A stretch of DNA of 36,136 nucleotides, from positions 1-36,136 of IMG/VR virus record IMGVR_UViG_3300025655_000130; one strand, written 5' to 3'. Position 1 is the stretch's first letter. The number at the start of each line of letters is the position of its first letter. This document shows, piece by piece, positions 4,771 through 28,991 of this stretch. Under the pieces are notes generated by a model. It had not been told where the DNA came from and searched no databases. It saw only the letters and a list, made by a program, of their open reading frames with translations. The position numbers and the translations under genes were made by a program. Source of the stretch: a virus.

Positions 4771-5079
4771 TTATTCTGCTTCTAGTTTAACTTGTAGTGG
4801 AAAATTATGTTGCCGTGCTAATAATGTTACTTCAACACCTTTTTGTTCTGCTATCTCGTAGGGATAAGTTGCTACAACTGCACTTCCATCTTCGTGAATG
4901 GTATGTGTTTTTTCTGCGGCTTTATTGTGATCGTATTTAAAGACAGCTATTAAAGTGGAAATTACGAACTCTACTGTTGTTACCTCATCGTTGATGTATA
5001 TTACATTAAACATAGAAGGCTCTTTAACCTCTTCATTTACTACTGGTTTAGTAACTGTAACTTCTTTAGTATCTGCCAT
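4771..5079 (-). CDS. clpS: ClpS adaptor of Clp protease
   Basis: This 102-residue protein is full length for ClpS, with a disordered N-terminal tail (1-20) and a core starting PSMFNVIYINDE. N30, D31, E32 and H62 align with the E. coli residues that hold the alpha-amino group of N-degrons (N34, D35, D36, H66). The position matching the E. coli gatekeeper M40 is V36. YEIAEQKG and LLARQHNFPLQ fit the C-terminal helix and strand. In bacteria ClpS delivers proteins with destabilising N termini to ClpAP; no ClpA is in the window, but a ClpX gene lies 800 bases away. Start is ATG. The tail could drive unfoldase inhibition, as in E. coli. Confidence 0.88.
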   Translation of the reverse strand: MADTKEVTVTKPVVNEEVKEPSMFNVIYINDEVTTVEFVISTLIAVFKYDHNKAAEKTHTIHEDGSAVVATYPYEIAEQKGVEVTLLARQHNFPLQVKLEAE

Positions 5080-5645: not shown

Positions 5646-5909
5646 TCAAAACAATTTTGTAGGTAGACGCTCAGAAGCCAACTTTTTCTGCCACCGTTTT
5701 CTGGCTTGATTAGCCTTTTGTTTACGCCTTGTAGTTGGCTTGATGTACTCGGATTTTTCCTGTAATTTCAGCAGTTTTCCACCTTCTTGCATCTTCTTTT
5801 TGAGTTTACGAAGTGCTTTGTCAACGTTACCATCTTTGACAAACACTACCGTACCCTTAGGTGCTTCGGCACCGCTCATGTCTAATATTCTATTTCTGTA
5901 TGGATTCAT
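5646..5909 (-). CDS. rpsU: Ribosomal protein bS21, phage version
   Basis: The core VKDGNVDKALRKLKKKMQEG, then IKPTTRRKQK and ARKRWQKKLAS, is the bS21 pattern: a short strand, a basic helix and a basic tail. In bacteria bS21 sits on the 30S platform near the anti-Shine-Dalgarno end of 16S rRNA. The 87-residue reading starts inside clpX (20-base overlap) and has an unusual N-terminal extension. An in-frame ATG at 5879 gives a 77-residue protein that starts 10 bases after the clpX stop and is equally likely; neither has a strong ribosome binding site. Phage bS21 genes are known in pelagiphages and huge phages and may bias initiation toward phage mRNAs. Confidence 0.88.
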   Translation of the reverse strand: MNPYRNRILDMSGAEAPKGTVVFVKDGNVDKALRKLKKKMQEGGKLLKLQEKSEYIKPTTRRKQKANQARKRWQKKLASERLPTKLF

Positions 5910-7113
5910 ATTTAATAATTGGTTTTTTATCTTCTGTTACTACTTTATCTGTAATTGTGATACTCTTTACACCCTTTTGTTTAAGATCAGATATCTCGAA
6001 CATATAAGGTTGCAAAATTTTCTCTATAACAGCCTTGAGTCCTCTTGCACCCACTTTCAACTTCATCGCTTCTTTTGCTAATGCTGATAATGATTTTGAA
6101 TCAAACATTAGTTTGATGTTATCAACATTGAAATAAAACTGCATCTGTTTCAGCAAATTGTTTTTAGGCTCTTTCATTATAGCAATATAATCGTCTAATG
6201 TCAAGTCATTTGTATGCACTATGACAGGGAATCTACCAGTAAATTCTGGTATCATACCAAATTTGACGAAATCTTCGTGTACAATCTTACTTCTGTCTAC
6301 ATTTCCGTCTCGTAACTTGCTACCAAAACCTATAGAGTTTGCGTTCATTCGTTTTTCAACTATTTTGTTTAGGTCTACAAATGCGCCGCCTGCAATAAAC
6401 AAAATATTCCTAGTATCTATTTCAACACTGTCGCTTACGACCATTTTTTTACTGGCTTTCACTGCAACTTTACATTTTGTACCTTCAACCAATTTAAGCA
6501 ATGCCTGTTGAACGCCTTCTCCTGATACGTCCTTACTCGTTGTACTTGATTCACCTTTACGTGCTATTTTATCTATCTCGTCAATAAACACTATACCTTG
6601 TTCACATTTATCAACATCAAAATCTGCTTCTGCTAATAAACGTTCTATTACATTTTCTACATCTTCGCCTACATAACCCGCTTCGGTTAAACTAGTAGCA
6701 TCTGTAATTACAAATGGTACATTTAAGTAATCTGCGATTGTACGTGCTAACAGCGTTTTACCTGAACCTGTTGGGCCAAATAACAGTAAGTTACTTTTAT
6801 CTAATTTAATATCGGTTCTATTGAACACTCGTTTATAATGGTTGACTACAGCAACAGATATTGCAACCTTAGCCTCGTCCTGGCCAATTATATGTTCGTC
6901 TAGATAACTCTTTATAGCCTGAGCATCTAGAGCTTCACGTATTTTTTCTTTTGTTCTGTTTTTACTGGTCTTTTCCTTAGCCAATATATTTGTACATAGT
7001 TCGGTACACTCATTACAGATGCCAACATCGTTACTGACTATCAGAGTCTCTACTTCACTTTTGCCCTTACCACAAAAGTTACATACTATCTCTGGTTTAT
7101 CTTTAGTGTTCAT
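5890..7113 (-). CDS. clpX: ClpX, AAA+ unfoldase of ClpXP
   Basis: This 407-residue protein is full length. The zinc-binding domain has C11, C14, C33 and C36. The ATPase core has Walker A GPTGSGKT (113-120), pore-1 loop GYVG (146-149), Walker B FIDE (176-179), DVSGEGVQQALLK, arginine finger R294 in FTGR and sensor-2 GARG (355-358). IGF at 261-263 is the tripeptide that docks on ClpP, so use of host ClpP is plausible. The loop after LVEGT that holds RKH in E. coli ClpX reads VKASKKMVV here, so substrate choice probably differs. No clpP is present. It overlaps the upstream 111-aa gene by 4 bases and bS21 downstream. It could remove host proteins or remodel phage proteins. Confidence 0.95.
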   Translation of the reverse strand: MNTKDKPEIVCNFCGKGKSEVETLIVSNDVGICNECTELCTNILAKEKTSKNRTKEKIREALDAQAIKSYLDEHIIGQDEAKVAISVAVVNHYKRVFNRTDIKLDKSNLLLFGPTGSGKTLLARTIADYLNVPFVITDATSLTEAGYVGEDVENVIERLLAEADFDVDKCEQGIVFIDEIDKIARKGESSTTSKDVSGEGVQQALLKLVEGTKCKVAVKASKKMVVSDSVEIDTRNILFIAGGAFVDLNKIVEKRMNANSIGFGSKLRDGNVDRSKIVHEDFVKFGMIPEFTGRFPVIVHTNDLTLDDYIAIMKEPKNNLLKQMQFYFNVDNIKLMFDSKSLSALAKEAMKLKVGARGLKAVIEKILQPYMFEISDLKQKGVKSITITDKVVTEDKKPIIKYESIQK

Positions 7114-13165: not shown

Positions 13166-13465
13166 CTAGGCTCCTTTGGCTATTTGTATACCTGATGTGC
13201 CTTGTAAATAACTATCAGCGGCGTCCTTGGCAGTTATACCGTGAAACACTATATGCTGATTTTTAAGCACTACTGTATTTATTTGTGCAGTCATGCCCAT
13301 TGGGACCAAAGCCATACCTTGTTGACTAGGCATAAGTGCTAGGGGTTTTTCTACTAGAAAGCCTTCTTCCTGACATTCCTGTACTCTTGCAATACATTCC
13401 TGTCCTGTTACTAGCATAAAAGTTACAATGTCGCCCTTATCATAGACAGGTTTATTGATTAGCAT
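13166..13465 (-). CDS. Small beta-rich protein next to PAAR
   Basis: This 99-residue protein begins MLINKPVYDKGDIVTFMLVT and continues GQECIARVQECQEEGFLVEK. The strand pattern, with a GDxVxFxLxxGQEcIAxV motif, resembles the Sm/Lsm-like fold seen in several small T4-like phage proteins, but I cannot name a family. It ends in a helix-poor, glycine-rich tail. The start overlaps the glutaredoxin gene by 14 bases and the stop is one base from PAAR, so it may be a tail component or a small RNA/DNA-binding protein. Confidence 0.55.
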   Translation of the reverse strand: MLINKPVYDKGDIVTFMLVTGQECIARVQECQEEGFLVEKPLALMPSQQGMALVPMGMTAQINTVVLKNQHIVFHGITAKDAADSYLQGTSGIQIAKGA

Positions 13466-13715
13466 TTAATTCCTCTATTTTTTGTTTGATTAAATCTACC
13501 GGCACTTTGGCCAATCCTTGATAGCCACCCTCTACTAAAAGTTGTCCTTTAACATATAATTGTGGTACTGTTCTATGTCCTTGCCCCAAAACAAACTGTT
13601 TGGCTTCTTCATCATTACCAATATTGATTTCTTCAAATGGTATATTATTGTTCTCTAATAGTGCTTTTGCCTGTGAACAAAACGGGCAAAAGTCTTTAGT
13701 GTATATTGTTATCAT
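13452..13715 (-). CDS. grx: Glutaredoxin
   Basis: This 87-residue protein is a standard single-domain glutaredoxin. The redox motif is C10-P-F-C13 after MITIYTKDF; TVPQLYV is the cis-proline segment and GGYQGL is the second glutathione-binding loop. It is likely the electron donor that re-reduces the NrdA/NrdB pair encoded upstream, as T4 NrdC does. Its start overlaps the stop of the DUF6492-like gene by 4 bases. Confidence 0.92.
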   Translation of the reverse strand: MITIYTKDFCPFCSQAKALLENNNIPFEEINIGNDEEAKQFVLGQGHRTVPQLYVKGQLLVEGGYQGLAKVPVDLIKQKIEELNANQ

Positions 13716-14578
13716 AAAAACTTTTTAACCTTGTTGAATATCTCATCGAAGTTTACAACAATTTCTTCATCGTTATCGAATATGATACTGTCTTCTAAGT
13801 TTGGACAAGCATCGCATATACAGTTGTATTCTTCTGCTGAGCAATTACCTATATCATTAATATTTGTATAGGTGTAGCGTTTTTGTTCCATCATAGCTAT
13901 CTCTCGACGAGACATAATCCAGTTGCCTAATAATTCGTACTCGCTGAACCATTTGATGTTTGGAGTAGGAACACTATGTGGATCTTCAGGAACATTATTA
14001 ATTATCGCATCGAAGGGGTCACAGTTATTTCTTTTAATGAGCTCGTGTTTTAAACTTAACCAATCCTCTTTATATACTGGCATAAACTCAGTTACAAAAC
14101 AATGAGGTGTTTGTCTCTTCATACCCAATGCGTTCTCAAGTGTTTGATAATATGCTGGACTGTGTGATTCGTTAGGCAGGATAAAATATTTTAATTTGTC
14201 CCCTTCCCACAGGTTGTAGGGATTTATACAAAAAGAGTCAGGGTCTTGTATAAGAATAACGTCAGCATCTATATAATCCAAACTAGCAAGTTTTAAAGCC
14301 TGTTGATATAACCAACTGTTTCTGTAATCGTTAGGTATCCACCAATTTTTTATTGTAGGATATAGGCTATCCATCTCACCATCGTATACGTACTTGAATT
14401 CGCTGGTGTCGAGATACTTTGAGAAAACTCTATCTAAGAAATGATTTTCTTCAGTAATCTCACAATTAGTGAATATGTACGTTTCGTCTATACCTTGGAT
14501 ATAGTGGTCAAACTGTAAACTTAGGCAGGTGTGAGGTATTCTATAGCCGGCAACAAAAACAGCTCTTGCCACCTTCAT
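13712..14578 (-). CDS. DUF6492-like protein, possible glycosyltransferase
   Basis: This 288-residue protein has the features I associate with DUF6492: an N-terminal strand and capsular-GT-like start, then NSWLYQQALKLASLDYIDAD followed by VILIQDPDSFCINP, where DAD and DPD give acidic DxD-type motifs, and FSEYELLGNWI near residue 213. Such proteins are related to GT-A type glycosyltransferases that bind a metal and a nucleotide sugar. The C-terminal quarter has a cysteine set (NCSAEEYNCICDACPN) that could bind a metal. It sits inside the nucleotide metabolism operon with 4-base overlaps on both sides. Substrate unknown. Confidence 0.55.
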   Translation of the reverse strand: MKVARAVFVAGYRIPHTCLSLQFDHYIQGIDETYIFTNCEITEENHFLDRVFSKYLDTSEFKYVYDGEMDSLYPTIKNWWIPNDYRNSWLYQQALKLASLDYIDADVILIQDPDSFCINPYNLWEGDKLKYFILPNESHSPAYYQTLENALGMKRQTPHCFVTEFMPVYKEDWLSLKHELIKRNNCDPFDAIINNVPEDPHSVPTPNIKWFSEYELLGNWIMSRREIAMMEQKRYTYTNINDIGNCSAEEYNCICDACPNLEDSIIFDNDEEIVVNFDEIFNKVKKFL

Positions 14579-15705
14579 AAAGTCATGCCTTTAAAAGTCT
14601 CCTCGTTAACATCCTGCTTGGTACCACCAATAACGTAACTACTAAGTTCCACTTCTTGTGGTGCTACTTGTACCTCTGCACCAGCAATCCATTTTTGTGT
14701 CCAGGGTAATGGGTTGCTTTGTCCTACTTTGTAGTGACTGTCAACGCCTATTGCAGTCATACGTTTGTTGGCTAACCATTCAACATACTCACTGAGTAGT
14801 TGTTTATTGAGACCAATCATGCTTCCATCTTTGAATAGGTATTCTGCCCAGGCTTTTTCCTGATCCACGGCCTGTACAAAAATATCTTTAACTTCTTGCT
14901 CACATTCTTGTTTAATCTTTGCGAAATCTTTGTCGTCTGTTGGTAGTATCTTTAACAATGCCTGTGTACTTGCAAGGTGTACATTCTCATCACGAGCAAT
15001 AAACTTAATAATTTTAGCATTGCCTTCCATCTTCTTAAGTTCAGCAAATGCCCAACTACACGCAAACGAAACATAGAAGCGTATGCCTTCTAGTGCGTTA
15101 ACACTATTAAGTGCCAGCCAGATACGCTTCTTAAGCTCATATGCACTTACTTCAAAACGCTTGCCGTTCGCTGTGTGGCTTCCTTCACCAAACAAGTTAT
15201 ATGCTTGTGTGTACTGAATAAGTTCGTCGTAGTGTCCTGTAATAGACTCTGCACAATTTACAATCTCTTTGATGTCTGTTAGTTCATCAAATACTTTTGC
15301 AGGGTCGCTGTATACGTTACGAATAATATGTGTATAACTGCGACTGTGTATTGTTTCGTTAAATGCCCAAGTCTCAATCCAAGTTTCTAATTCTGGGATT
15401 GTGGCTAGTGGCAAAAATGCTAGGTTAGGTGAGCGTCCTTGAACACTGTCTAATAGAATTTGTCTCTTTAAGTTACTGGTAAAGATGTGTTGCTCGTGTG
15501 CTGTAAGATCCTTAAAGTCCTTGGCATCACGCATAACATCGACTTCTTCTGGTCTCCAAAAAAAGCCTAGTTGTTTGTCTGTTAATTTTTCAAACTGTCT
15601 ATACTTTACTGTATCGTAACGCTGTACACTACTGCCGCCCTTTGGATCAAGGAAGGCTAACGCCTTAAGGTGGTTACCCTTTTGTTGTATGTTAAAGACA
15701 CTCAT
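14575..15705 (-). CDS. nrdB: Ribonucleotide reductase beta subunit, class I
   Basis: This 376-residue protein is the radical-generating subunit. WAFNETIHSRSYTHIIRNVY contains a metal ligand glutamate, the ligand histidine and the tyrosine in SRSYTH equivalent to E. coli Y122. ARDENVHLASTQALL holds the second Glu/His ligand pair. It pairs with NrdA to reduce ribonucleoside diphosphates. Length and motifs are normal. The 9-base gap to nrdA indicates one operon. The last residues (ETFKGMTL) are slightly different from the E. coli tail that binds NrdA. Confidence 0.96.
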   Translation of the reverse strand: MSVFNIQQKGNHLKALAFLDPKGGSSVQRYDTVKYRQFEKLTDKQLGFFWRPEEVDVMRDAKDFKDLTAHEQHIFTSNLKRQILLDSVQGRSPNLAFLPLATIPELETWIETWAFNETIHSRSYTHIIRNVYSDPAKVFDELTDIKEIVNCAESITGHYDELIQYTQAYNLFGEGSHTANGKRFEVSAYELKKRIWLALNSVNALEGIRFYVSFACSWAFAELKKMEGNAKIIKFIARDENVHLASTQALLKILPTDDKDFAKIKQECEQEVKDIFVQAVDQEKAWAEYLFKDGSMIGLNKQLLSEYVEWLANKRMTAIGVDSHYKVGQSNPLPWTQKWIAGAEVQVAPQEVELSSYVIGGTKQDVNEETFKGMTL

Positions 15706-15714
15706 TTTATTATC

Positions 15715-18006
15715 CTATATTACGCAACTCTCACAGGCTTCGTCGTCAACTTCACCTGGCTGTAGTTCTTCAAGTTTGTTTACGTCTATTTCTCCCTGCC
15801 CATCATAGGTATTGAAATAGTATAACTGCTTTCCGCCGTACTTATAAAACATCATGAGATGTCTTAGCATCTCGCTCATAGGTATTTTTTCATCTTCATA
15901 CCACTGTGGATTGTAACTGGTATTAACGCTAATACCTTGGTCGATATACTTCTGAAGAACTGCCATGATCTTTAGGTATCCCGTAGGATCCTTTTGGTCC
16001 CATAGCAATTCATATTTATTTTTCAGTCTGCGGTACTCAGGTACTACTTGCTTGAGTACACCATCTTTACTTTGTTTAACACTCACGTAACTACGTGGTG
16101 GCTCTACACCGTTAGTAGCATTACTAATTTGCGCAGATGTTTCTGCAGGCATGAGTGCCATAAGTGTAGCATTCCTAATGCCGTGTTGTTTAATTTCTGT
16201 ACGTAGATAGTTCCAGTCAAACTGTCTCTGCTGTGGTGCTACTAGTTCGTCTACATCTTTCTTATAAGTGTCAATAGGCAATATACCGTCTGCATACTTT
16301 AAGTTTTGGAATCCTTCACATGGGCCTTGCTCTTTAGCAAGTTCTAAACTGGCACTAATCAAATAGTAACTCCAGGCTTCTGCGTACTGGTCTACCAGTT
16401 CTAATGCGGAAGGATCATTATATGTTTTGTCGTTCTTTGCTAACCAGTAAGCCAAGTTAATAATACCTACGCCTAATGGTCTGTACTCACGTGTGGCTTC
16501 TTGTGCCGCCTTAACAGGGTAGCCCTGATAACTTAGTAGTGCATCTAATCCACGTACCGCTAGTTTACAAGGTTTCTCAAAATCTTCCGGGTTTTTAATC
16601 GCACCCCAGTTAATAGCACTCAGTGTACACAATGCTATCCTACCTTCTGGATCCTCAAAACTTTTAAGTGGCTTGGTAGGTAAGTCGATCTCGCAACATA
16701 AGTTACTTTGCTTAATAGGTGCTACTTCTTGCTTGAACGGTGAGTGTGTATTTGCGTGGTCAACGTTCATTAAGTAGACACGCCCTGTATCTTTACGCTC
16801 CTGCATAAAGGCAGTAAACAAATCAATTGCTTTGACTTTCTTTTTACGAATGCTTGTCTTACGCTCTGCTTGCTCGTAAAGCTCTTTAAACTTGTCGGCG
16901 TTAGCATAGAACGCATCGTACATTTCCGGTACATCATTGGGCGAAAATAGAGTAATATCTCCCCCTTGGATAAGTCTTTCGTACATTAATTTGTTAAATT
17001 GGACGCCATAATCCATGTGGCGTACTCTATTATCCTCTGTGCCTTTATTGTTCTTTAAAACTAATAAATCTTCTACTTCCAAGTGCCAGATAGGATAGTA
17101 TAGTGTTGCCGCTCCGCCACGCACACCACCTTGGCTACATGACTTAACAGCACTCTGGAATAATTTGTAAAACGGAATAACGCCTGTGTGATAAGCATCA
17201 CCGTTACGCACTGGCGAATTAATAGCACGAATACGTCCTGCACCAATACCAATGCCTGCTTTTTGTGATACGTATTTTACAATAGCACTTGCTGTTGCGT
17301 TAATGCTGTCTAAACTGTCATCAGTTTCTACAAGTACACAACTACTAAATTGTTTTTGTGGTGTACGCACACCTGCCATAACAGGAGTGGGCAGACTAAT
17401 TAAGTGGTTACTAATAGCATCATAGTAATCATGCACCCACTGTAGTCTTGAGTCTTTAGGATAGTTTTGGAACAGAGTCGCCGCAATTAACATATAACAC
17501 ACTTGCGGTGTTTCGTATAATTCTTTTGTTACACGATTTTGTACAAGGTATTTGCCTCTGAATTGCTCCATAGCAACATAGGTAAAGTTTTCATCACGTT
17601 CGTGTTTTACATAACTGTTTAGCTTGTCCCACTCTTCTTCTGTATAACTTGTTAACAATTCACTGTCGTAGTAACCTCTTTCCACATTGGCTTTTACAAT
17701 CCTGTGAAGATGCCAAGGCTCGTATTCGTTGTAAACCTGTTTTCTAATATGATAGTTAATTAGTCTACCAGCAACATACTGATAGTTTGGTGTCTCTTCT
17801 GAAATTAAATCTGCCGCACTTTTAATAAGTGTTTCTTGAATGTCTGATGTTTTAATACCGTCGTAAAATTGTAAACTGGATTTAATTTCTACTTCGCTTG
17901 CACTCACGCCTGTGATATTTTCAGTAGCCCAGATGACTACCTTATGCATTTTTTCTAAGTTGATAGGCTCCTTGTGCCCCTCACGTTTGGTTACTTGTAT
18001 ATTCAT
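15715..18006 (-). CDS. nrdA: Ribonucleotide reductase alpha subunit, class Ia
   Basis: Starts at ATG 18006 (MNIQVTKREGHKEPINLEKM), giving 763 residues; a longer in-frame reading to 18060 is not part of the protein. The N-terminal ATP-cone (about 1-90) is the activity-control domain. FSSCVLVETDDSLDSI has the first active-site cysteine, NLCCEIDLPTKPL the catalytic one, and ALCTLSAINWG the second of the redox pair. The C-terminal CESCVI is the swinging disulfide that accepts electrons from glutaredoxin. Genes nrdA, nrdB and grx lie in one transcript, separated by the DUF6492-like gene. Phage dNTP synthesis is the role. Confidence 0.97.
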   Translation of the reverse strand: MNIQVTKREGHKEPINLEKMHKVVIWATENITGVSASEVEIKSSLQFYDGIKTSDIQETLIKSAADLISEETPNYQYVAGRLINYHIRKQVYNEYEPWHLHRIVKANVERGYYDSELLTSYTEEEWDKLNSYVKHERDENFTYVAMEQFRGKYLVQNRVTKELYETPQVCYMLIAATLFQNYPKDSRLQWVHDYYDAISNHLISLPTPVMAGVRTPQKQFSSCVLVETDDSLDSINATASAIVKYVSQKAGIGIGAGRIRAINSPVRNGDAYHTGVIPFYKLFQSAVKSCSQGGVRGGAATLYYPIWHLEVEDLLVLKNNKGTEDNRVRHMDYGVQFNKLMYERLIQGGDITLFSPNDVPEMYDAFYANADKFKELYEQAERKTSIRKKKVKAIDLFTAFMQERKDTGRVYLMNVDHANTHSPFKQEVAPIKQSNLCCEIDLPTKPLKSFEDPEGRIALCTLSAINWGAIKNPEDFEKPCKLAVRGLDALLSYQGYPVKAAQEATREYRPLGVGIINLAYWLAKNDKTYNDPSALELVDQYAEAWSYYLISASLELAKEQGPCEGFQNLKYADGILPIDTYKKDVDELVAPQQRQFDWNYLRTEIKQHGIRNATLMALMPAETSAQISNATNGVEPPRSYVSVKQSKDGVLKQVVPEYRRLKNKYELLWDQKDPTGYLKIMAVLQKYIDQGISVNTSYNPQWYEDEKIPMSEMLRHLMMFYKYGGKQLYYFNTYDGQGEIDVNKLEELQPGEVDDEACESCVI

Positions 18007-18014
18007 TGATGCCT

Positions 18015-18464
18015 CTAAATGTATTGTTCTAGTTCTAGATCCTGATGGGAATAACGGCACATGATCCTCAGATCAGGACTAACATTGTTTTTATTTACTA
18101 TCTCCATCCAGTCGTAATTAAGTACATATTTTCCATCATCTACACTGACTATATAGCGATACTCGCCGTTCTCAAGTCCTATCACTACTTCGTATGTGTG
18201 TTCATTATGTCCACTAAGATATAAAGTATACATGATGCCAAGACATTTTGCAAGTTCGTCATAGCCAGAGTCTTCCAATAGTTCCCAGGGATCTGGAAAC
18301 GTTGAACTATCTGTATAGTCCATCCACTGGTTAATTATTGGTGCATAGGACCATAGTTTAATAGTTTCGAAGATTGCTTCTTCAAATGATTTGGTTTGCA
18401 TTTCTTTGCGAAACGCCGCCCACTCGCGGATTCGCTCAGAAGTTTTTTGGTAATGCCAAAGCAT
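18015..18464 (-). CDS. Conserved T4-like phage protein of unknown function
   Basis: This 149-residue protein starts MLWHYQKTSERIREWAAFRK and continues with an acidic part with WSYAPIINQWMDYTDSSTFP. The second half has strands (VVIGLENGEYRYIVSVDD) and ends YSHQDLELEQYI. I do not know a function; similar proteins occur beside nrdA in T4-like marine phages as far as I recall. ATG overlaps the stop of the tail fibre by one base and nrdA follows 8 bases later, so it bridges the structural and nucleotide genes. Confidence 0.6.
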   Translation of the reverse strand: MLWHYQKTSERIREWAAFRKEMQTKSFEEAIFETIKLWSYAPIINQWMDYTDSSTFPDPWELLEDSGYDELAKCLGIMYTLYLSGHNEHTYEVVIGLENGEYRYIVSVDDGKYVLNYDWMEIVNKNNVSPDLRIMCRYSHQDLELEQYI

Positions 18465-21134: not shown

Positions 21135-21142
21135 TATTTATT
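21135..21142 (-). promoter_or_regulatory. Possible late promoter AATAAATA
   Basis: The minus strand has AATAAATA about 19 bases before the ATG of the 119-aa gene. The box overlaps the stop region of the Fe-S gene (stop at 21138). Confidence 0.48.
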
Positions 21143-21452
21143 TAAAAGTAACACTTTCCCCACATCCACAACTTGCGATTTCATTAGGATTTAGGAATAC
21201 TAGTTTAGTGTTAAGTCCCTTAACTTGCATGTCAACTGTTGTGCCTGTAAGCCAATCTTCATGCTCGGGTTTCCAAGTATAAGTTATGTCGCCTTGTTTG
21301 CTAATCTTATACCCTTCTGGTATACTGTCAAGCCAGTCAATCTGATAACTGTAGCCTGTACAGCCTTCTTGTTTGAAACTTATTTGTAGTGTTTTGTTGT
21401 CGCCTACGTACTTGTAAAAGTGATCGTATGCTTTAGGTGTGAATGTAATCAT
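21138..21452 (-). CDS. A-type iron-sulfur carrier (IscA/ErpA-like)
   Basis: This 104-residue protein has the HesB/IscA layout with its three cysteines: C31 in EGCTGYSYQID, then C95 and C97 in ASCGCGESV. These three bind the Fe-S cluster or iron. It starts MITFTPKAYDHFYKYV, like the TxxA helix of the family. Cellular IscA proteins hand clusters to apo-enzymes. In this phage it may serve the radical SAM enzyme encoded at 32075-32974 or host Fe-S proteins. Known in marine phages. Confidence 0.87.
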   Translation of the reverse strand: MITFTPKAYDHFYKYVGDNKTLQISFKQEGCTGYSYQIDWLDSIPEGYKISKQGDITYTWKPEHEDWLTGTTVDMQVKGLNTKLVFLNPNEIASCGCGESVTFK

Positions 21453-21469
21453 GTATGTATTATAACAGA

Positions 21470-21814
21470 TTACTGTCTACGATTCAATGCCCTTTTCGCC
21501 ATTTGGTTAACTTTAACTTCTGGTGGCATATTACCTCCACCTGGTTGAAGTTCGGACATTCCGCCGTCGAGGTTTAGAGTAATCATGTTACCCTCTACGT
21601 TTTTAATTAGGTTTCTTATTGTTGGTTCATTAAACAGTTCTTGCATTGTTGCAGGGTCAAGGTGTGCGCCAGTATTCTGAACCATTTTAACAAGACTGTC
21701 TACTGTGATGTTTGGTTGTAGATTACGATCACTCGCTCTACCTTTTAAGAACTCAAGAACAGAAGCTAGTTTCGCAACTAGCTTCTTATCTTCATGCAAC
21801 TCAGAAAAGCGCAT
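21470..21814 (-). CDS. Unknown phage protein with possible processing site
   Basis: This 114-residue protein starts MRFSELHEDKKLVAKLASVL; L-H-E at 6-8 is a possible prohead-protease type site (L/I-x-E). The rest is helical with a C-terminal glycine-rich part (LDGGMSELQPGGGNMPPEVK). Start and the stop of the upstream gene share a base (TAATG). The pattern suggests a head-associated protein, but this is inference. Confidence 0.62.
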   Translation of the reverse strand: MRFSELHEDKKLVAKLASVLEFLKGRASDRNLQPNITVDSLVKMVQNTGAHLDPATMQELFNEPTIRNLIKNVEGNMITLNLDGGMSELQPGGGNMPPEVKVNQMAKRALNRRQ

Positions 21815-24790: not shown

Positions 24791-24798
24791 ATTTATTT
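24791..24798 (-). promoter_or_regulatory. Possible late promoter AATAAATA
   Basis: The minus strand reads AATAAATA 50 bases before the ATG of the 152-aa gene. It overlaps the stop codon of the upstream 185-aa gene. Ribosome binding sequence AAGGAG (24745-24755 region) follows. Confidence 0.5.
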
Positions 24799-25350
24799 CA
24801 ATTCTTTAAATTTTGACCAATATACATCAATATATGGGGTGTCGGCCCTTACATTACGTCTAAGATTAACAATAGCAGTTTTCTTTACTGTATCGCTGTA
24901 AGTGTCCCAATAACTTACTAATCTACGTACATTTTTAAGATCGCCATCTGTTATTTTTAGATAGTCTTCTAGTTTTACAAATAATTCTCTATCTCGTTGA
25001 ATGTACCTATGTCCCTCAATTATATCACGCAGGTACCTTTTTATACCGAACTCAGGAGCACTCACTGTATGGTCTACATCCAAGTATTCTTCTAAGTCTT
25101 TTTGATTGTTTATTGCGGATATAAGATTATACATATCGGTCATAGCAGGCTTCATACCTGGAAAACCCGCATACCGATATGTATCATTAGCGTATTGTTT
25201 TGCATACTTCTCATCATAATGCCTAATAATCTCAAGCATTAATATAATTTGATATAGCATGTGTCCTAGGTCACGTGCCGACATCCCCCTGAAGTCACGT
25301 GCGTACCTAAAGATTCTGCTTTCATTTAGTTCTTGAATAAAGTCAAACAA
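24793..25350 (-). CDS. Unknown helical protein, TTG start
   Basis: This 185-residue protein starts at TTG 25350 with GGGG upstream, overlapping the stop of the HxGH gene by 8 bases. The first residues MFDFIQELNESRIFRYARDF include L-N-E at 8-10, again a possible L/I-x-E processing site. The body is mostly helix, rich in Tyr, Arg and Asp, with no known domain. Position next to the nucleotidyltransferase cassette suggests cotranscription. Role unknown. Confidence 0.58.
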   Translation of the reverse strand: MFDFIQELNESRIFRYARDFRGMSARDLGHMLYQIILMLEIIRHYDEKYAKQYANDTYRYAGFPGMKPAMTDMYNLISAINNQKDLEEYLDVDHTVSAPEFGIKRYLRDIIEGHRYIQRDRELFVKLEDYLKITDGDLKNVRRLVSYWDTYSDTVKKTAIVNLRRNVRADTPYIDVYWSKFKELK

Positions 25351-25933
25351 CGCCCATCCCCTCTGCTACCTTGTTAAAAACGGTCTGAGCTAACTTACCT
25401 TCTAAACCAGTAAGTTGTTGGAACTTATCCATGTCCTTGGCTTGTACTGCTCCTCGGACATCTGTCGCTCTCACATCGCCCTTGTCAGTGTTGGCAAAGC
25501 CTACTACGTCTTTAAATTTGTAGTAACCGTGTCTTGCTTCAACACCGTTAAACTTTTTAAAGCCACCAACAAAGTCGTTGATTCTTTCTGGATCCCCTAC
25601 AAAAACAAGAGTAATGTTCTCTGCTTCTTTGGGATCGTATTTTTTATATATTGCTACAATAGCATCGTATGCTGTCCTAATACTAGGATCAGCTAGTATG
25701 TTGTCACTATATGCAGGAAATACCTGCTTTAATATAGCAACTTTGTCTGCATACTGTAATGGATTCTTTTTAGGATCGTGTGTTTGTCCTGTGCCAATCC
25801 AAAAACCATAGTTGCCTATAGATTCAAGTTTCTTAAACACCTCTGCGTGTCCTAGGTGCGGTGGCTGAAACCTACCCCAACTAAAGGCTACACGTTGTTC
25901 TGGTGCTTCTTGTAAAAACTCTTTTGCTCTCAT
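25343..25933 (-). CDS. HxGH cytidylyltransferase/NMN-adenylyltransferase-like protein
   Basis: I start it at ATG 25933 (MRAKEFLQEAPEQRV), 196 residues; upstream in-frame codons overlap another gene. SWGRFQPPHLGHAEVF has the HxGH nucleotide-binding motif (H26-x-x-H29 with G28), TGQTHDPKKNPLQYADKVAI and RATDVRGAV (equivalent of the SxTxxR motif) complete the class I nucleotidyltransferase pattern close to NadM. It would transfer AMP or CMP to a phosphate. The N terminus L7-Q8-E9 followed by A10 fits a T4 prohead-protease site. Possible link to NAD metabolism or RNA ends. Confidence 0.72.
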   Translation of the reverse strand: MRAKEFLQEAPEQRVAFSWGRFQPPHLGHAEVFKKLESIGNYGFWIGTGQTHDPKKNPLQYADKVAILKQVFPAYSDNILADPSIRTAYDAIVAIYKKYDPKEAENITLVFVGDPERINDFVGGFKKFNGVEARHGYYKFKDVVGFANTDKGDVRATDVRGAVQAKDMDKFQQLTGLEGKLAQTVFNKVAEGMGVV

Positions 25934-25937
25934 AGTA

Positions 25938-27041
25938 CTACTTATCTTTAGGAGACCAGTTAGGTTGGTCAATCATTTTAACAAACTGTCCTGGTAAGTC
26001 TGATTTAAACTCCTTACCTGGATGTGCTTGCACATAACCTTCCGGCTTGGTCTGTCTGATATCTCCGTGTTTTGCAGAACCCAGTTGCTGTAATACCTGG
26101 TTCTTTTGTCCTGTAATCATTTCAACTGCACTTAGTGTAGCATCTAATCCAGGATGATTTAATATTTTCTCTGCTTGTCCTGCACTTAAATTTTTCTCTA
26201 CCCAGTCTGTAAAGCCTTTTTTAGCACCAGGTACTCTTAGTGTTTGGTTGTAGAACTTGTATAGCACATCGCCTGGTCTCTTTAAGCCAGGCTGTCCACC
26301 AATAAAGTCATCTATTTTACTGGCATTACTGCTAATATAACGCTCTACAATGTTTAAGCCTTTGTCATCTAGTTTAGGCTTTGCTTCTGTATATGTTGTA
26401 CCCTGTACAATAACATCTGGTGTGCTTAGTTTTTCTATACCGTCTAGTCTGCTTTCAGGTGCATTAATGTCTTCATAGTAACCTGTTACTGCTACCATAA
26501 CTTTGGCACCAGCAATACGTTTGCCTAAGTTGCTGTCAGCAGGAATATGAAACTGTGTAATGTTGGGTTTAAATTCGTATTCGTTTGTTTTGGGATTCAG
26601 TTTTGCGGGCTCACCAGGATAAAATAGTAATCCACCTTCTACTAGTCCTTTTTTAGGACTTGCTTTACGTAGTAGTGGCCATAAGTTACCCATGTCTTGA
26701 GCAAATGCCATTCTAGCATCTTCTTGCCCTGGTTGTGGTTTACCAGTACCTGCTACAAAATCATTTACATCCTGCGGTCCTGTTGCCAGTGTAGGAATAC
26801 CTGCACCAACTTCTCTCACACCACGCTTTAGGTATGCAAGAGCATTCTTCATCAAGACCGTAAATTTACCGTCAACCTCTCCCCAGTAAAGTACAGGACT
26901 ACCGTCCCACTTAAGTTCTATGCCACCAGACTCTTGCATGTCACGTAGACGCTCAACAGCATGTAGTCCACCACGACTGCCGTTAGTGAATACTAGATCT
27001 TCAATGTGTTGATATTTTCTGCCTACTGTAGGTTCTGCCAT
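25938..27041 (-). CDS. KxDG nucleotidyltransferase/ligase-like protein
   Basis: I start it at ATG 27041 (MAEPTVGRKYQHIEDLVF), 367 residues; a GTG at 27053 is an alternative. IELKWDGSPVLYWGEVDGKF has K-x-D-G of the covalent nucleotidyltransferase superfamily (DNA/RNA ligases and capping enzymes), lysine 44 in the short form. GLVEGGLLFYPG fits motif IV. The later part contains Gly/Pro-rich and coiled-coil sections. I recall related phage proteins under DUF6267. The canonical motif V with two lysines is not clear, so activity is uncertain. It overlaps the Pol-beta-type gene by 19 bases. Confidence 0.58.
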   Translation of the reverse strand: MAEPTVGRKYQHIEDLVFTNGSRGGLHAVERLRDMQESGGIELKWDGSPVLYWGEVDGKFTVLMKNALAYLKRGVREVGAGIPTLATGPQDVNDFVAGTGKPQPGQEDARMAFAQDMGNLWPLLRKASPKKGLVEGGLLFYPGEPAKLNPKTNEYEFKPNITQFHIPADSNLGKRIAGAKVMVAVTGYYEDINAPESRLDGIEKLSTPDVIVQGTTYTEAKPKLDDKGLNIVERYISSNASKIDDFIGGQPGLKRPGDVLYKFYNQTLRVPGAKKGFTDWVEKNLSAGQAEKILNHPGLDATLSAVEMITGQKNQVLQQLGSAKHGDIRQTKPEGYVQAHPGKEFKSDLPGQFVKMIDQPNWSPKDK

Positions 27042-27721
27042 TTTTGAGTCCACTCTGTTGCCATGTATTTGTTCTTAATTGCATCGTACTTTTTAGGATA
27101 TGGTTCTAATGCTTTTAGTAACTTTGTTGGGTTACCCATGTCATCTGCTGTGGCACTAGGACCAATAATAATCTTTGCTATCTCGTCTTTGTTGTTAGTG
27201 ACTAGTTCTTTTGTTTCTCTGTTAACTAGTCCTTTGTATGGACTCATCATTAAACTTTCTGCTTCGGGAGTCGCACTCATGTTTGCTAGGTCTGCCCACA
27301 TAGCATGTAGTGTGCCACCTTTCATTTGTGAGTCTGTGTAATCATGTGTGTGCAATGGCTGTGCCGCTTTTGCGTTTTCAACTGCCATTAAATCTACTTG
27401 TGCAACACCGCCCTCACCATTAGGGATACCAACGTGTACACTAACTCCTGTACGTTTGGCTTCTAGACCCATGCTTTGGAAATGTTTTTCTAGTGCCTGT
27501 CTTGCTAGTTTTAATTCATCTACAGGAAACACATCTAGTAGTTGTCCAGCATCAATAAGAACATCCACATCACTGCTGACTTCTTTCTTGCCTGCTGAAC
27601 CAATAGGGTACATATCTATACCCAGTGGTAAAGCCTTTTGTAAGTTTTTCTTAACAGCGTCGAAGTTTTTAAGTGTTATTGGTTCCGCTGAAGGTATTGC
27701 CTTACCGCCCTCAGTTATCAT
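27023..27721 (-). CDS. Pol-beta-type nucleotidyltransferase
   Basis: This 232-residue protein has the minimal Pol-beta nucleotidyltransferase core: G41-S42 in YPIGSAGKKEVSSDVDVLID with metal-binding D51 and D53, and the third acidic residue D110 in AQVDLMAV. Poly(A) polymerases, CCA enzymes and small-molecule nucleotidyltransferases share this. The N terminus MITEGG has I-T-E before G, again like a prohead-protease site. It overlaps the 204-aa gene by 4 bases (ATGA). Substrate could be RNA 3' ends or a protein/antibiotic-like small molecule. Confidence 0.72.
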   Translation of the reverse strand: MITEGGKAIPSAEPITLKNFDAVKKNLQKALPLGIDMYPIGSAGKKEVSSDVDVLIDAGQLLDVFPVDELKLARQALEKHFQSMGLEAKRTGVSVHVGIPNGEGGVAQVDLMAVENAKAAQPLHTHDYTDSQMKGGTLHAMWADLANMSATPEAESLMMSPYKGLVNRETKELVTNNKDEIAKIIIGPSATADDMGNPTKLLKALEPYPKKYDAIKNKYMATEWTQKWQNLQ

Positions 27722-28332
27722 TTTTGGAATCCTGTTACTAGATCATCTAACTTGTTATTTGGATTAATATATGCTTTGAAATCATTACTCCACCAACCTG
27801 CTGGGGTAAGATCGAATGTAACGTAACCTGTTAGTCCTGAGCCCTCACGTCCAATTGCTTTTTGCCAGTCCTTCATAGGAATCTGTACACTAGTTTGGAA
27901 GTTCATGTGATGAGGAGGTCTAGATTTAATAAATCTTGTACTAGGGTCTTCTTTATCAAACTTGTGTGGATCAACGTAAACGTCTACACTGTCTATGTAA
28001 CGACGTTCATCATCAGTTATTCTGCCGCTTTGTAGTTCGCCCTGTTGTTTAAGGTATTCTATCTTAGTGTTAATGTTTTCATTAGGATCGTTAACAGGAC
28101 CTTGTTTTTGGGGTTTAACCTTTTTAACTTGTTCTTGGTCTGTGGTCTTTTTAACAGTAGCACCAGGCGTTGTGTCTATCCCTAATTTTTTACCTAAGTC
28201 CTCAAGGTCTTTAATAGCGTTGCGGGCTTGTTTATTTTGGGTATCCTTTTCGACCTGACTGGGAGACTTACCTGCTAGGCCACCTAAAAACTGTGTCCAC
28301 ATACCTGCTTCGAATAACTCTTTTACTTTCAC
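27718..28332 (-). CDS. Small protein with possible capsid-targeting start
   Basis: This 204-residue protein starts at GTG (MKVKELFEAGMWTQFLGGLA). L6-F7-E8 followed by A9 is a fit to the L/I-x-E site. GGLAGKSPSQV at 17-27 is shared with the 136-aa protein upstream (GGMAGKSASQV). The middle is charged (KKTTDQEQVKKVKPQKQGPV), and the end has a strand-rich domain (SVDVYVDPHKF; NFQTSVQIPMKDWQKAIG). Head-internal protein is my best inference. No enzyme motif. Confidence 0.62.
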   Translation of the reverse strand: MKVKELFEAGMWTQFLGGLAGKSPSQVEKDTQNKQARNAIKDLEDLGKKLGIDTTPGATVKKTTDQEQVKKVKPQKQGPVNDPNENINTKIEYLKQQGELQSGRITDDERRYIDSVDVYVDPHKFDKEDPSTRFIKSRPPHHMNFQTSVQIPMKDWQKAIGREGSGLTGYVTFDLTPAGWWSNDFKAYINPNNKLDDLVTGFQK

Positions 28333-28342
28333 TACCTACCCC

Positions 28343-28753
28343 TTATTCTGGTCTTCTACTAGAGCCTGGTCTCACCACGGCAGGACCGCCTTTATTCATG
28401 TTATTTGCGATAAATGCGTTCAGTTGGCCTGAGCTGGCTAACCTGCTATACTCAGCTACTGATATCCCTAACTCTGCCGCTTTTTTTTCAACAGCCTTTT
28501 TCCGTTTTTTTGCATCCTCTGCCTTCTTTTTCTCTTTATCCTTTTCTGCCTTCTGTATTCTTTTTTCTTTCTCATCCTGCATGTTGTATGCGACTTGGCT
28601 AGCAGACTTTCCTGCCATTCCACCTGTTGCCTGTCTTACTAACTCAGATGTTGTAGCCTTGTTATATCCACTTTTAATGGCAGAACCGGCACTTTTTAAT
28701 CCACTTGCTATACTACCGAGAATACCTTCTGTAACTACCTCATTAATCTTCAC
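28343..28753 (-). CDS. Lysine-rich small protein with possible capsid-targeting start
   Basis: This 136-residue protein starts at GTG (MKINEVVTEGILGSIASGLK). V7-T8-E9 followed by G10 resembles a processing site, with Val in place of Leu or Ile. The segment 58-90 is nearly all Lys, Glu and Arg, like T4 internal proteins that bind DNA. GGMAGKSASQV at 44-54 is shared with the 204-aa gene. It overlaps the 82-aa gene by 11 bases. Inferred head-internal protein. Confidence 0.62.
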   Translation of the reverse strand: MKINEVVTEGILGSIASGLKSAGSAIKSGYNKATTSELVRQATGGMAGKSASQVAYNMQDEKEKRIQKAEKDKEKKKAEDAKKRKKAVEKKAAELGISVAEYSRLASSGQLNAFIANNMNKGGPAVVRPGSSRRPE

Positions 28754-28991
28754 GTCGAACTCTCCTAATACCTCGAGTAAACTTTTCAGGTTCGCCTGTA
28801 CGTATGCTGTTCAACAAACGCTTTTCTAAGTTAGCGGCTGTGTCAGCATCATAGTTTTGACGGATATGCTCTAAGAGGTTAATAGCACTCTTAATAACGT
28901 TATTAGCTCTGCTTTCTATTAGGCTATTATTGTCACGTTTTGTGACGAAAGTGTCTAATTCGTCTAATAAACTTCTTGTTTTCTTTTGCAC
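28743..28991 (-). CDS. Small helical protein, GTG start
   Basis: This 82-residue protein starts at GTG with TGGAGT 7 bases upstream. It is helical and charged (MQKKTRSLLDELDTFVTKRD; IEKRL-type end KFTRGIRRVRRED). I recall similar small proteins in T4-like marine phages but no function. It is the first gene of the cassette that runs to 24793 and is directly downstream of TATAAATA at 29013-29020. Confidence 0.62.
   Translation of the reverse strand: MQKKTRSLLDELDTFVTKRDNNSLIESRANNVIKSAINLLEHIRQNYDADTAANLEKRLLNSIRTGEPEKFTRGIRRVRRED

Follow-up and report, generated by a model that had tools for sequence, protein, structure and literature searches.

Nucleotidyltransferase-like genes with candidate head-targeting leaders in a T4-type phage genome fragment

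Organization of the locus

The phage analysed here is known solely as a 36-kb IMG/VR fragment (IMGVR_UViG_3300025655_000130, positions 1 to 36,136), which is called the window below; the virion evidence that we cite comes from homologs. The cassette, its flanking genes and a candidate from a second cluster comprise the following features.

25343..25933, minus strand: HIGH-motif nucleotidyltransferase (CTP_transf_like, NMNAT-like; PF01467, phrog_3041), leader MRAKEFLQE/A
25907..25933, minus strand: putative capsid-targeting leader MRAKEFLQE of the HIGH enzyme, cut predicted after E9 from sequence and the family test
25938..27053, minus strand: DUF6267 protein (PF19782), predicted ATP-dependent-ligase-like; KWDG motif I, EGYV, K359
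27023..27721, minus strand: Pol-beta superfamily protein, minimal-family-X-like (palm and thumb; D51, D53, D110), leader MITE/GG
27718..28332, minus strand: fast-evolving protein, leader MKVKELFE/A, GTG start
28343..28753, minus strand: fast-evolving lysine-rich protein, internal-protein-like, leader MKINEVVTE/G, GTG start
28743..28991, minus strand: virion structural protein directly upstream of the 28343 gene (phrog_11854, head and packaging, E 1.3e-17)
24793..25350, minus strand: protein of unassigned function, weak leader candidate MFDFIQELNE/S, TTG start
21470..21814, minus strand: second-cluster leader candidate MRFSELHE/D, beside a virion-structural-like gene

The open reading frame at 25343-25972 begins with TTG; because the MRAKEF start is an ATG at 25933, the HIGH enzyme gene was bounded at 25343-25933. 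All six N termini to which the initial annotation drew attention, those of the genes at 25343, 27023, 27718, 28343, 24793 and 21470, are present among the translated minus-strand genes, and the nucleotidyltransferase motifs that it noted in two of these proteins were confirmed. The gene between those two, at 25938-27053, was not on its list and encodes a third nucleotidyltransferase-like protein, without a canonical leader: it either starts with the non-canonical VDSKMAE/P or begins at MAEPT.

The leader site is conserved in families but not enriched in genomes

The bare motif by which these proteins had been grouped occurs at chance level. Its loose form was found in these 6 of the 51 window genes and in no other, where internal segments of the window's own proteins predict 4.6 (P 0.3), although 5 of the 6 fall within six adjacent genes (simulated P ~6e-4). 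Across the whole genome of a 289-kb near relative it begins 28 of 359 genes (25-27 expected), and in four isolates it is barely above expectation. Since counts are near chance in both the window and the near relative, a motif count on its own is no evidence. A strict M[KR] form was seen 7 times in the relative against 0.5 expected, but this form was picked post hoc. In cyanophage S-SCSM1 the loose motif tracks virion labels weakly (P 0.04) and the strict forms not significantly. We accordingly rejected the motif as a genome-wide predictor, given its chance-level counts and the inability of strict forms to tell the virion genes of S-SCSM1 from its other genes.

Within protein families the picture is different, and the search of relatives for conserved start peptides that the initial annotation had proposed revealed conservation far above chance. 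In tests whose relatives are not independent of one another, [LIVMF]-x-E stands directly before the DUF6267 domain in 47 of 48 distinct leaders (mean 12.7 and maximum 23 in 2000 shuffles); the same site occurs at 17 of 17 junctions of fused pol-beta/DUF6267 proteins (1.5 shuffled), at 27 of 28 HIGH-domain boundaries within longer proteins, mostly DUF6267/HIGH fusions (5.8 shuffled), and in 73 of 100 leaders of the HIGH family (34 shuffled). At the DUF6267 site, P1 is E in 65/65 sequences, P3 is L, I or V in 61/65, and P1' is mostly A. The HIGH leader varies among relatives (MRAKEILRE/A, MRAREILRE/A) while L-x-E/A stays constant, and homologs that lack a leader start at the predicted mature end, MAKNTHLEHLED. 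Comparison of these protein families thus established that the cassette enzymes bear short, putatively cleavable N-terminal leaders ending in hydrophobic-x-E, and that this site recurs between the domains of fused homologs.

If the class is defined by a leader of ~6-20 residues that ends in (L/I/V)-x-E and is followed by a small residue, the products of the genes at 25343, 27718 and 28343 belong to it. That of 27023 has a leader of 4 residues only, those of 24793 and 21470 resemble the class weakly, and the window's own 25938 product, with M-A-E/P or no leader, falls outside it.

Protease, capsid maturation site and virion proteins

A member of the gp21 protease family (PF03420) is encoded by the nearest long relative (E 1.4e-27) and by 5 of 5 isolates examined; the 36-kb window itself has no match to it, as expected of a fragment. 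Major-capsid propeptides of the relatives end in FLSE/A, FLAE/A, VLTE/A, LAE/S, FLTE/T and FLGE/I, and these ends, in phages that encode gp21, share the leader motif: the leader site matches the major capsid propeptide, the known substrate of that protease. In T4 the leader has 10 residues, of which residues 4 and 7 direct targeting (rules from PMC9026906 and PMC5694885), and the enzyme Alt is cut by gp21 at ITE-6 and LTE-619 (PMC5694885). An E-to-D change at P1 stops processing in T4 and leaves targeting intact.

Published mass spectrometry detected a HIGH nucleotidyltransferase in the virions of three cyanophages, S-SZBM1, S-CREM2 and S-SCSM1. The S-SCSM1 enzyme begins MKSFLQFLKE/A. In S-SZBM1 the leadered protein _140 (MRFRQFIIE/A) is in the published virion list, from which the leaderless ligase-like _141 and also _142 are absent.

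The earlier proposal that the leaders are T4-type targeting and processing signals therefore holds for the enzyme families, on the strength of conservation, fusion junctions, the capsid-site match, gp21 in relatives and the published virion HIGH enzyme. It holds less well for MITE/G, as every T4 leader is longer, and for the 24793 and 21470 cases, where there is a motif only. Given the leaders of relatives, the junctions, the capsid site and the virion data, packaging and processing are well supported as predictions for the HIGH enzyme and the 27718 and 28343 proteins of this phage. The polymerase-like protein is likely to be packaged and processed as well, its leader here being putative, and packaging and processing of the window's ligase-like protein are doubtful because it has no proper leader.

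Predicted functions of the cassette proteins

HIGH enzyme. This protein matches PF01467 (E 7e-8, 33 bits against a cut-off of 21) and the cytidyltransferase family phrog_3041 (E 4e-24), with a weak profile match to the NMNAT MJ0541 (E 0.018). It has both a cytidylyltransferase-like domain and the HxGH motif (GRFQPPHLGH), and is predicted to be an NMN-adenylyltransferase-like enzyme.

Polymerase-X-like protein. The AlphaFold model of the 27023-27721 product (pLDDT 84) is disordered at residues 223-232 and at residues 1-4, the latter coinciding with the predicted propeptide. Every one of the top Foldseek matches listed is a family X polymerase (best E 2.6e-6), and the model aligns with Pol beta over palm and thumb (Z 10.6 across 164-166 residues). 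The alignment begins at Pol beta residue 142, so that the N-terminal 8-kDa lyase domain is absent, as it is from minimal family X members; we therefore call the protein polymerase-X-like only, and predict from the model that it is a DNA polymerase X-like protein. D51, D53 and D110 are invariant and were equated with the Pol beta triad by motif, without superposition; E4-G5-G6 at the end of the leader is likewise invariant in relatives. The protein has no match in Pfam (RlaP included), in PDB profile searches or, by tblastn, among isolate phages, and a literature search on phage family X polymerases returned nothing. One match lies in a bacterial genome bin, on a 4.2-kb contig of a metagenome-assembled genome, and is likely phage contamination.

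Ligase-like protein. The 25938-27053 product matches PF19782 (DUF6267; E 1e-16), and its AlphaFold model (pLDDT 88) is disordered at residues 1-11. The best 50 matches listed in a fold search are all RNA or DNA ligases, with a top Z of 7.3 that is below the confident range: Naegleria RNA ligase scores 7.3, T4 Rnl2 5.8, Rnl1 5.7 and Trl1 5.6, and Foldseek gives E 0.2. Motifs I, IV and V, assigned by eye as K48-W-D-G51, E338-G339 and K359, are invariant or nearly so across 39 sequences. A sequence-profile search of the PDB gave no meaningful match and a literature search on DUF6267 found nothing. We predict an ATP-dependent-ligase-like protein on the basis of the model.

Small fast-evolving proteins. 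The 27718 protein shares 35-42% identity with its positional homologs, while the proteins encoded next to them reach 81-99%, and its leader is kept; the 28343 protein has 31-36% identity to homologs that begin MKIKEVITE/G or VKVNEVVTE/G. By analogy, both look like counterparts of T4 IPI-IPIII, and their role is probably anti-defence.

A probable variant of the T4 internal-protein system

The cassette is probably a variant of the already known T4 internal-protein system. With IPI-IPIII and Alt it shares the short leader that closes with hydrophobic-x-E and is followed by a small residue, the gp21 family (here in relatives), small fast-evolving proteins, and enzymes among the cargo. It differs in that the cargo is polymerase-X-like, ligase-like and NMNAT-like, sometimes as one fused polypeptide with inter-domain sites, in the polymerase-X-like leader of only 4 residues, and in that packaging is predicted from genes. 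Some eukaryotic DNA viruses, such as African swine fever virus, have a repair pair of family X polymerase and ligase. The cassette resembles such a pair in its minimal Pol X-like protein without a lyase domain and its adjoining ligase-like protein, but belongs to a phage with a T4-type head, has another ligase type and uses leader-based delivery, and no sequence-level homology was found.

The NMNAT/cytidylyltransferase virion proteins of cyanophages S-SCSM1, S-SZBM1, S-CREM2 and S-CBWM1 are homologous to the HIGH enzyme, with the S-SCSM1 and S-SZBM1 leaders given above. In their accessible parts, the cyanophage virion papers report detection and speculate on a role in NAD, and do not discuss ligase-like and polymerase-X-like partners or polyproteins; two of them (PMC9602691, PMC10665884) name no targeting leader for the enzyme. 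Polyvalent injected proteins (Iyer et al. 2017, PMC5512222) also join several enzymatic domains in one supposedly injected polypeptide, but are freed by embedded peptidases, whereas the linkers here have gp21-type sites and the protease is separate.

A probable packaged enzyme kit and its alternatives

In the reading that we consider probable, the products of the cassette are carried inside the head of a T4-type phage and include a nucleotidyltransferase kit delivered together with the DNA. Because most proteins of the cluster start with a cleavable T4-type head-loading tag, these phages probably inject the kit ready-made. The leader would dock each protein into the prohead core, a gp21-type protease would cut behind the E during head maturation, and the trimmed enzymes would stay inside the capsid until they pass into the host alongside the DNA. 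Judged by fold, the kit may combine a gap filler of the family-X-polymerase-like type with an NMN-adenylyltransferase-like enzyme and with a ligase-like enzyme for which this phage probably does not use leader targeting. These three predicted folds would suit roles in repairing nucleic acids and in NAD metabolism. The most likely jobs would be mending damaged nucleic acid just after entry and sustaining NAD.

It is possible that packaging is confined to the HIGH enzyme and the two small proteins, and that the polymerase-like and the ligase-like protein work in the cytoplasm late in infection. The missing canonical leader of the window's ligase-like protein, the absence of S-SZBM1_141 and _142 from the virion list and the very short MITE all point this way, but most other relatives have a ligase-like protein with an evident leader or junction site, and the E-G-G that follows the pol-beta leader does not vary.

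More tentatively, a T4-type lineage may pack a full repair kit of gap filler, sealer and NAD maker, in some members as one polyprotein cut inside the prohead by the capsid-maturation protease, so that damaged incoming genomes are mended before expression. We regard as somewhat unlikely that the packaged Pol-beta and ligase-like proteins instead repair tRNAs of the host or the phage after defence nucleases have cleaved them, in the manner of jumbo-phage RlaP and RNA ligase pairs. RNA ligases are the top fold neighbours of DUF6267, and phage RNA-ligase-associated Pol-beta enzymes have been described (PMC7824862); the Pol-beta protein, however, aligns with family X DNA polymerases over palm and thumb, matches no Pfam model such as RlaP, and has no recognised end-processing kinase or phosphatase beside it in the cassette.

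The initial annotation had suggested Alt-like effectors that act on host proteins or RNA on entry; AMPylation would be one such modification. Alt shares the gp21-dependent delivery route (PMC5694885), and Pol-beta nucleotidyltransferases have been proposed as protein modifiers within injected polyvalent proteins (PMC5512222), but both the thumb of polymerase-X type and the ligase-like protein encoded next to it suggest that the substrates are polynucleotides, and no effector-specific feature was found, which makes this reading improbable. Judged from the models, a repair plus NAD kit would fit the enzymes at least as well. That the leaders are accidental N-terminal L-x-E in ordinary cytoplasmic early enzymes, as the chance-level genome-wide counts and the position of the genes near replication genes and away from the late head cluster might suggest, is very improbable given family conservation despite variable flanking residues, the fusion junctions, the capsid-site match and the homologs seen in virions by mass spectrometry.

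T4-type phages are among the commonest viruses in water. The leader and junction signature offers a simple predictor of the cargo that they inject besides DNA if applied to families, not single proteins, and explains the recurrent NMNAT-like enzymes in cyanophage virion proteomes. Predicted functions (polymerase X-like and ligase-like) are now attached to one unannotated family and one DUF. If the packaged repair kit is real, such a phage would enter the cell equipped to repair its own genome; if the cargo serves anti-defence, it is an extensive and so far unexploited source of counter-defence proteins.

Further leader candidates

The 24793-25350 protein has no family match in the Pfam/PHROG-type searches of window proteins, and its relatives at 69-72% identity keep L/I-N-E/S. 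The leader of the 21470 protein, MRFSELHE/D, is maintained in relatives, and the neighbouring gene at 21814-22440 matches a virion structural family (phrog_14154, E 5e-8).

Three nucleotidyltransferase-like proteins in one cassette

Similarity and gene order assign the window, an IMG/VR virus fragment, to a T4-type phage with relatives in the Kyanoviridae. Three of its genes encode nucleotidyltransferase-like proteins:

25343-25933, minus strand: HIGH-motif nucleotidyltransferase (HIGH enzyme), by family match
25938-27053, minus strand: DUF6267 protein, ligase-like, by family match and predicted structure
27023-27721, minus strand: pol-X-like protein, by predicted structure (pLDDT 84)

The best profile match of the HIGH enzyme was an archaeal NMN adenylyltransferase, and this match was weak. 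Sequence-family searches with the pol-X-like protein gave no match, while its model aligned with the palm and thumb of family X DNA polymerases (Foldseek E 2.6e-6; Z 10.6 over 164-166 residues). Disorder was predicted at both of its ends, in MITE (residues 1-4) and in the final ten residues. For the DUF6267 protein, the model (pLDDT 88, first 11 residues predicted disordered) resembled ATP-dependent ligases all through the list, headed by a Naegleria RNA ligase (Z 7.3); by eye, KWDG was assigned to motif I, while motifs IV and V could be placed at EGYV and K359. Three apparently unrelated nucleotidyltransferase-like folds therefore lie side by side.

Leader sites are conserved among relatives

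The initial annotation proposed that six proteins open with a T4-like capsid-targeting leader, a short tag ending in hydrophobic-x-E before a predicted cut (marked by a slash). All six N termini are present in the window, although the one beginning MRAKEF starts at an ATG at 25933 and not at the TTG that opens ORF 25343-25972; the small proteins at 27718-28332 and 28343-28753 start with GTG, and a weaker candidate at 24793 with TTG. The motif count alone is worthless as evidence, since the loose motif (hydrophobic-x-E near the N terminus, then a small or polar residue) occurs in 6/51 window genes, where internal segments of these proteins predict 4.6 (P 0.3), and in 28/359 in the nearest long relative (289 kb) against 25-27. 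Five of the six window matches nevertheless cluster within six adjacent genes (simulated P 6e-4), the odd one in this run being 25938-27053, whose N terminus is VDSKMAE/P or starts at MAEPT.

We compared about 70 viral contigs carrying the pol-X-like (pol-beta) gene and its neighbours, and alignment searches added 80 loci for DUF6267 and 80 for the HIGH enzyme. The site is kept: within the last nine residues ahead of the conserved domain, 47/48 distinct DUF6267 leaders have [LIVMF]-x-E, against 12.7 when shuffled (maximum 23 in 2000 shuffles), these and all other leader and junction counts being drawn from related sequences and hence not independent events. Around the predicted cut, all 65 DUF6267 sites have E at P1, 61 have L, I or V at P3 and 42 have A at P1' (for example MKSFKSFITE/A, MQSFKQYLSE/A, MKKFDKYIVE/A and MKIRELLTE/A), and the site stays constant while surrounding residues vary freely. 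Leaderless DUF6267 homologs open exactly at the predicted mature N terminus (MAKNTHLEHLED). HIGH-enzyme leaders carry the site in 73/100 cases against 34 shuffled (maximum 48), many of the misses having hydrophobic-x-E slightly upstream of the 12-residue cut-off.

Predicted cut sites persist in fused polyproteins

In several relatives (including L039, L043, L050-L053 and L058) the pol-beta protein and DUF6267, often with the HIGH enzyme, form a single reading frame. A leader-type site occurs at 17/17 pol-beta/DUF6267 junctions against 1.5 shuffled, and at 27/28 HIGH-domain boundaries within longer proteins against 5.8; junction sites include KYFSQPISE/AADVGRKYQH, NQPVTE/AQD, SAVRE/AKEG, SVVNE/AQ and SVLRE/D. 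On sequence grounds the leader family and its junction sites are well established, and a cut site that outlasts gene fusion is the strongest argument of this kind that cleavage is real.

Pol-X-like relatives also have an L/V-x-E/GS close to the C terminus, recalling the C-terminal cut of T4 Alt, which is cleaved at ITE-6 and LTE-619 (PMC5694885). The conserved tail ([VL]xE/GSxEWFR, columns 222-245 of the pol-X-like alignment) is possibly a C-terminal propeptide.

Protease and capsid substrate

No gene for gp21, the T4-type prohead protease, was found in the 36,136-base fragment. A PF03420 protease is present in the nearest long relative (E 1.4e-27) and in P-TIM40, C48C1, Melnitz, HTVC008M and Cr30. 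In an alignment of major capsid proteins from these phages, with S-SCSM1 added and Cr30 left out, the propeptides end in the leader motif (LAE/S, FLGE/I, VLTE/A, FLSE/A, FLAE/A, FLTE/T), the cut being placed by alignment. In the T4 leader, residues 4 and 7 target the protein, residues 8 and 10 are required for processing, and D at residue 10 stops it (PMC9026906).

Homologs of the HIGH enzyme in virions

Virion presence is established for homologs of one enzyme. Published mass spectrometry detected the HIGH enzyme in virions of S-SZBM1 (PMC9146016), S-CREM2 (PMC10665884) and S-SCSM1 (PMC9602691), and an NMNAT was reported in the S-CBWM1 virion. S-SZBM1 offers a natural test: the virion-detected proteins _140 and _139 have MRFRQFIIE/A and KILNCVTE/G, and the virion list (n=30) contains neither the leaderless DUF6267 protein _141 (MAKNTHLEHLED) nor _142 (MARTIKEAWND). 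The S-SCSM1 HIGH enzyme begins MKSFLQFLKE/A, and its neighbours 89, 90, 92, 93 and 97 are likewise marked in the record as virion proteins. When every S-SCSM1 gene is considered, the motif distinguishes virion proteins from the rest only weakly (P 0.04 loose; strict not significant), as would follow if tail components make up most of the virion proteins.

In the related phage S-N03, gp226 (L318:6546-7259), downstream of the HIGH enzyme, is a second, different pol-beta-type nucleotidyltransferase (TGGNANYNYTPYSDIDLHLVVD). By length and relative position, S-CREM2 ORF156, also detected in virions (PMC10665884), is probably its counterpart.

Proposed packaging and function

We infer that the window phage cuts, packages and injects these enzymes. 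The leader would attach each protein to the head core, gp21 would cleave it during head maturation, and the trimmed enzymes would stay beside the DNA and be injected. Given its M-A-E/P leader, or the lack of any, the window's own ligase-like protein may be left unpackaged.

The most likely function, held with moderate confidence, is early nucleic-acid repair together with NAD supply. The nearest competing explanation is RNA repair, since DUF6267 has its best fold matches among RNA ligases and phages are known to carry RlaP-type partners (PMC7824862). Precedents exist for both capsid-targeted internal proteins and NMNAT-like virion proteins; in the open-licence literature we found no report of a leader explaining the NMNAT virion detections, of leadered DUF6267 and polymerase-X-like partners, or of fusion polyproteins with gp21-type junctions.

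Small fast-evolving leadered proteins

The proteins at 27718 and 28343 share 31-42% identity with their counterparts, against 81-99% for flanking structural, polymerase-like and ligase-like genes on the same contigs. They are hypervariable between otherwise near-identical contigs, and the leader and a subsequent GG-x-AGKS segment are kept despite this divergence. T4 internal proteins show the same pattern of conserved leader and diverging body (PMC9026906), and an anti-defence role may be suggested for both. Leader types have apparently been exchanged between them, contig L007 having MKIKELLTE/GWKD at the 27718 position.

Other genes

Leadered proteins of nuclease-like appearance (KTDILIGN / IEIKAS, judged by eye) occur in related contigs (L011:5266-6351, L012:6908-7966, L113:13796-14542), with leaders MQGFKTFLSE/A and MRAYQFLTE/G; those of L011 and L012 lie immediately upstream of the ligase-like gene. 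They are possibly a further packaged enzyme. The cassette-bearing genomes C48C1 and Melnitz encode more leadered unknown proteins (e.g. MTQKFSQFITE/E, MKKFKQYIDE/G). Elsewhere in the window we noted:

4771-5079: ClpS-like adaptor gene, by eye, close to the ClpX-like gene
5890-7113: ClpX-like ATPase gene, by eye, close to the ClpS-like gene
13452-13715: glutaredoxin-like gene, by eye
13712-14578: DUF6492-like gene, by family match, between the glutaredoxin-like and NrdB/NrdA genes
within 13452-18060: class I ribonucleotide reductase NrdB and NrdA genes, by eye
21138-21452: HesB/IscA-like iron-sulfur carrier protein, CGCGES motif, by eye
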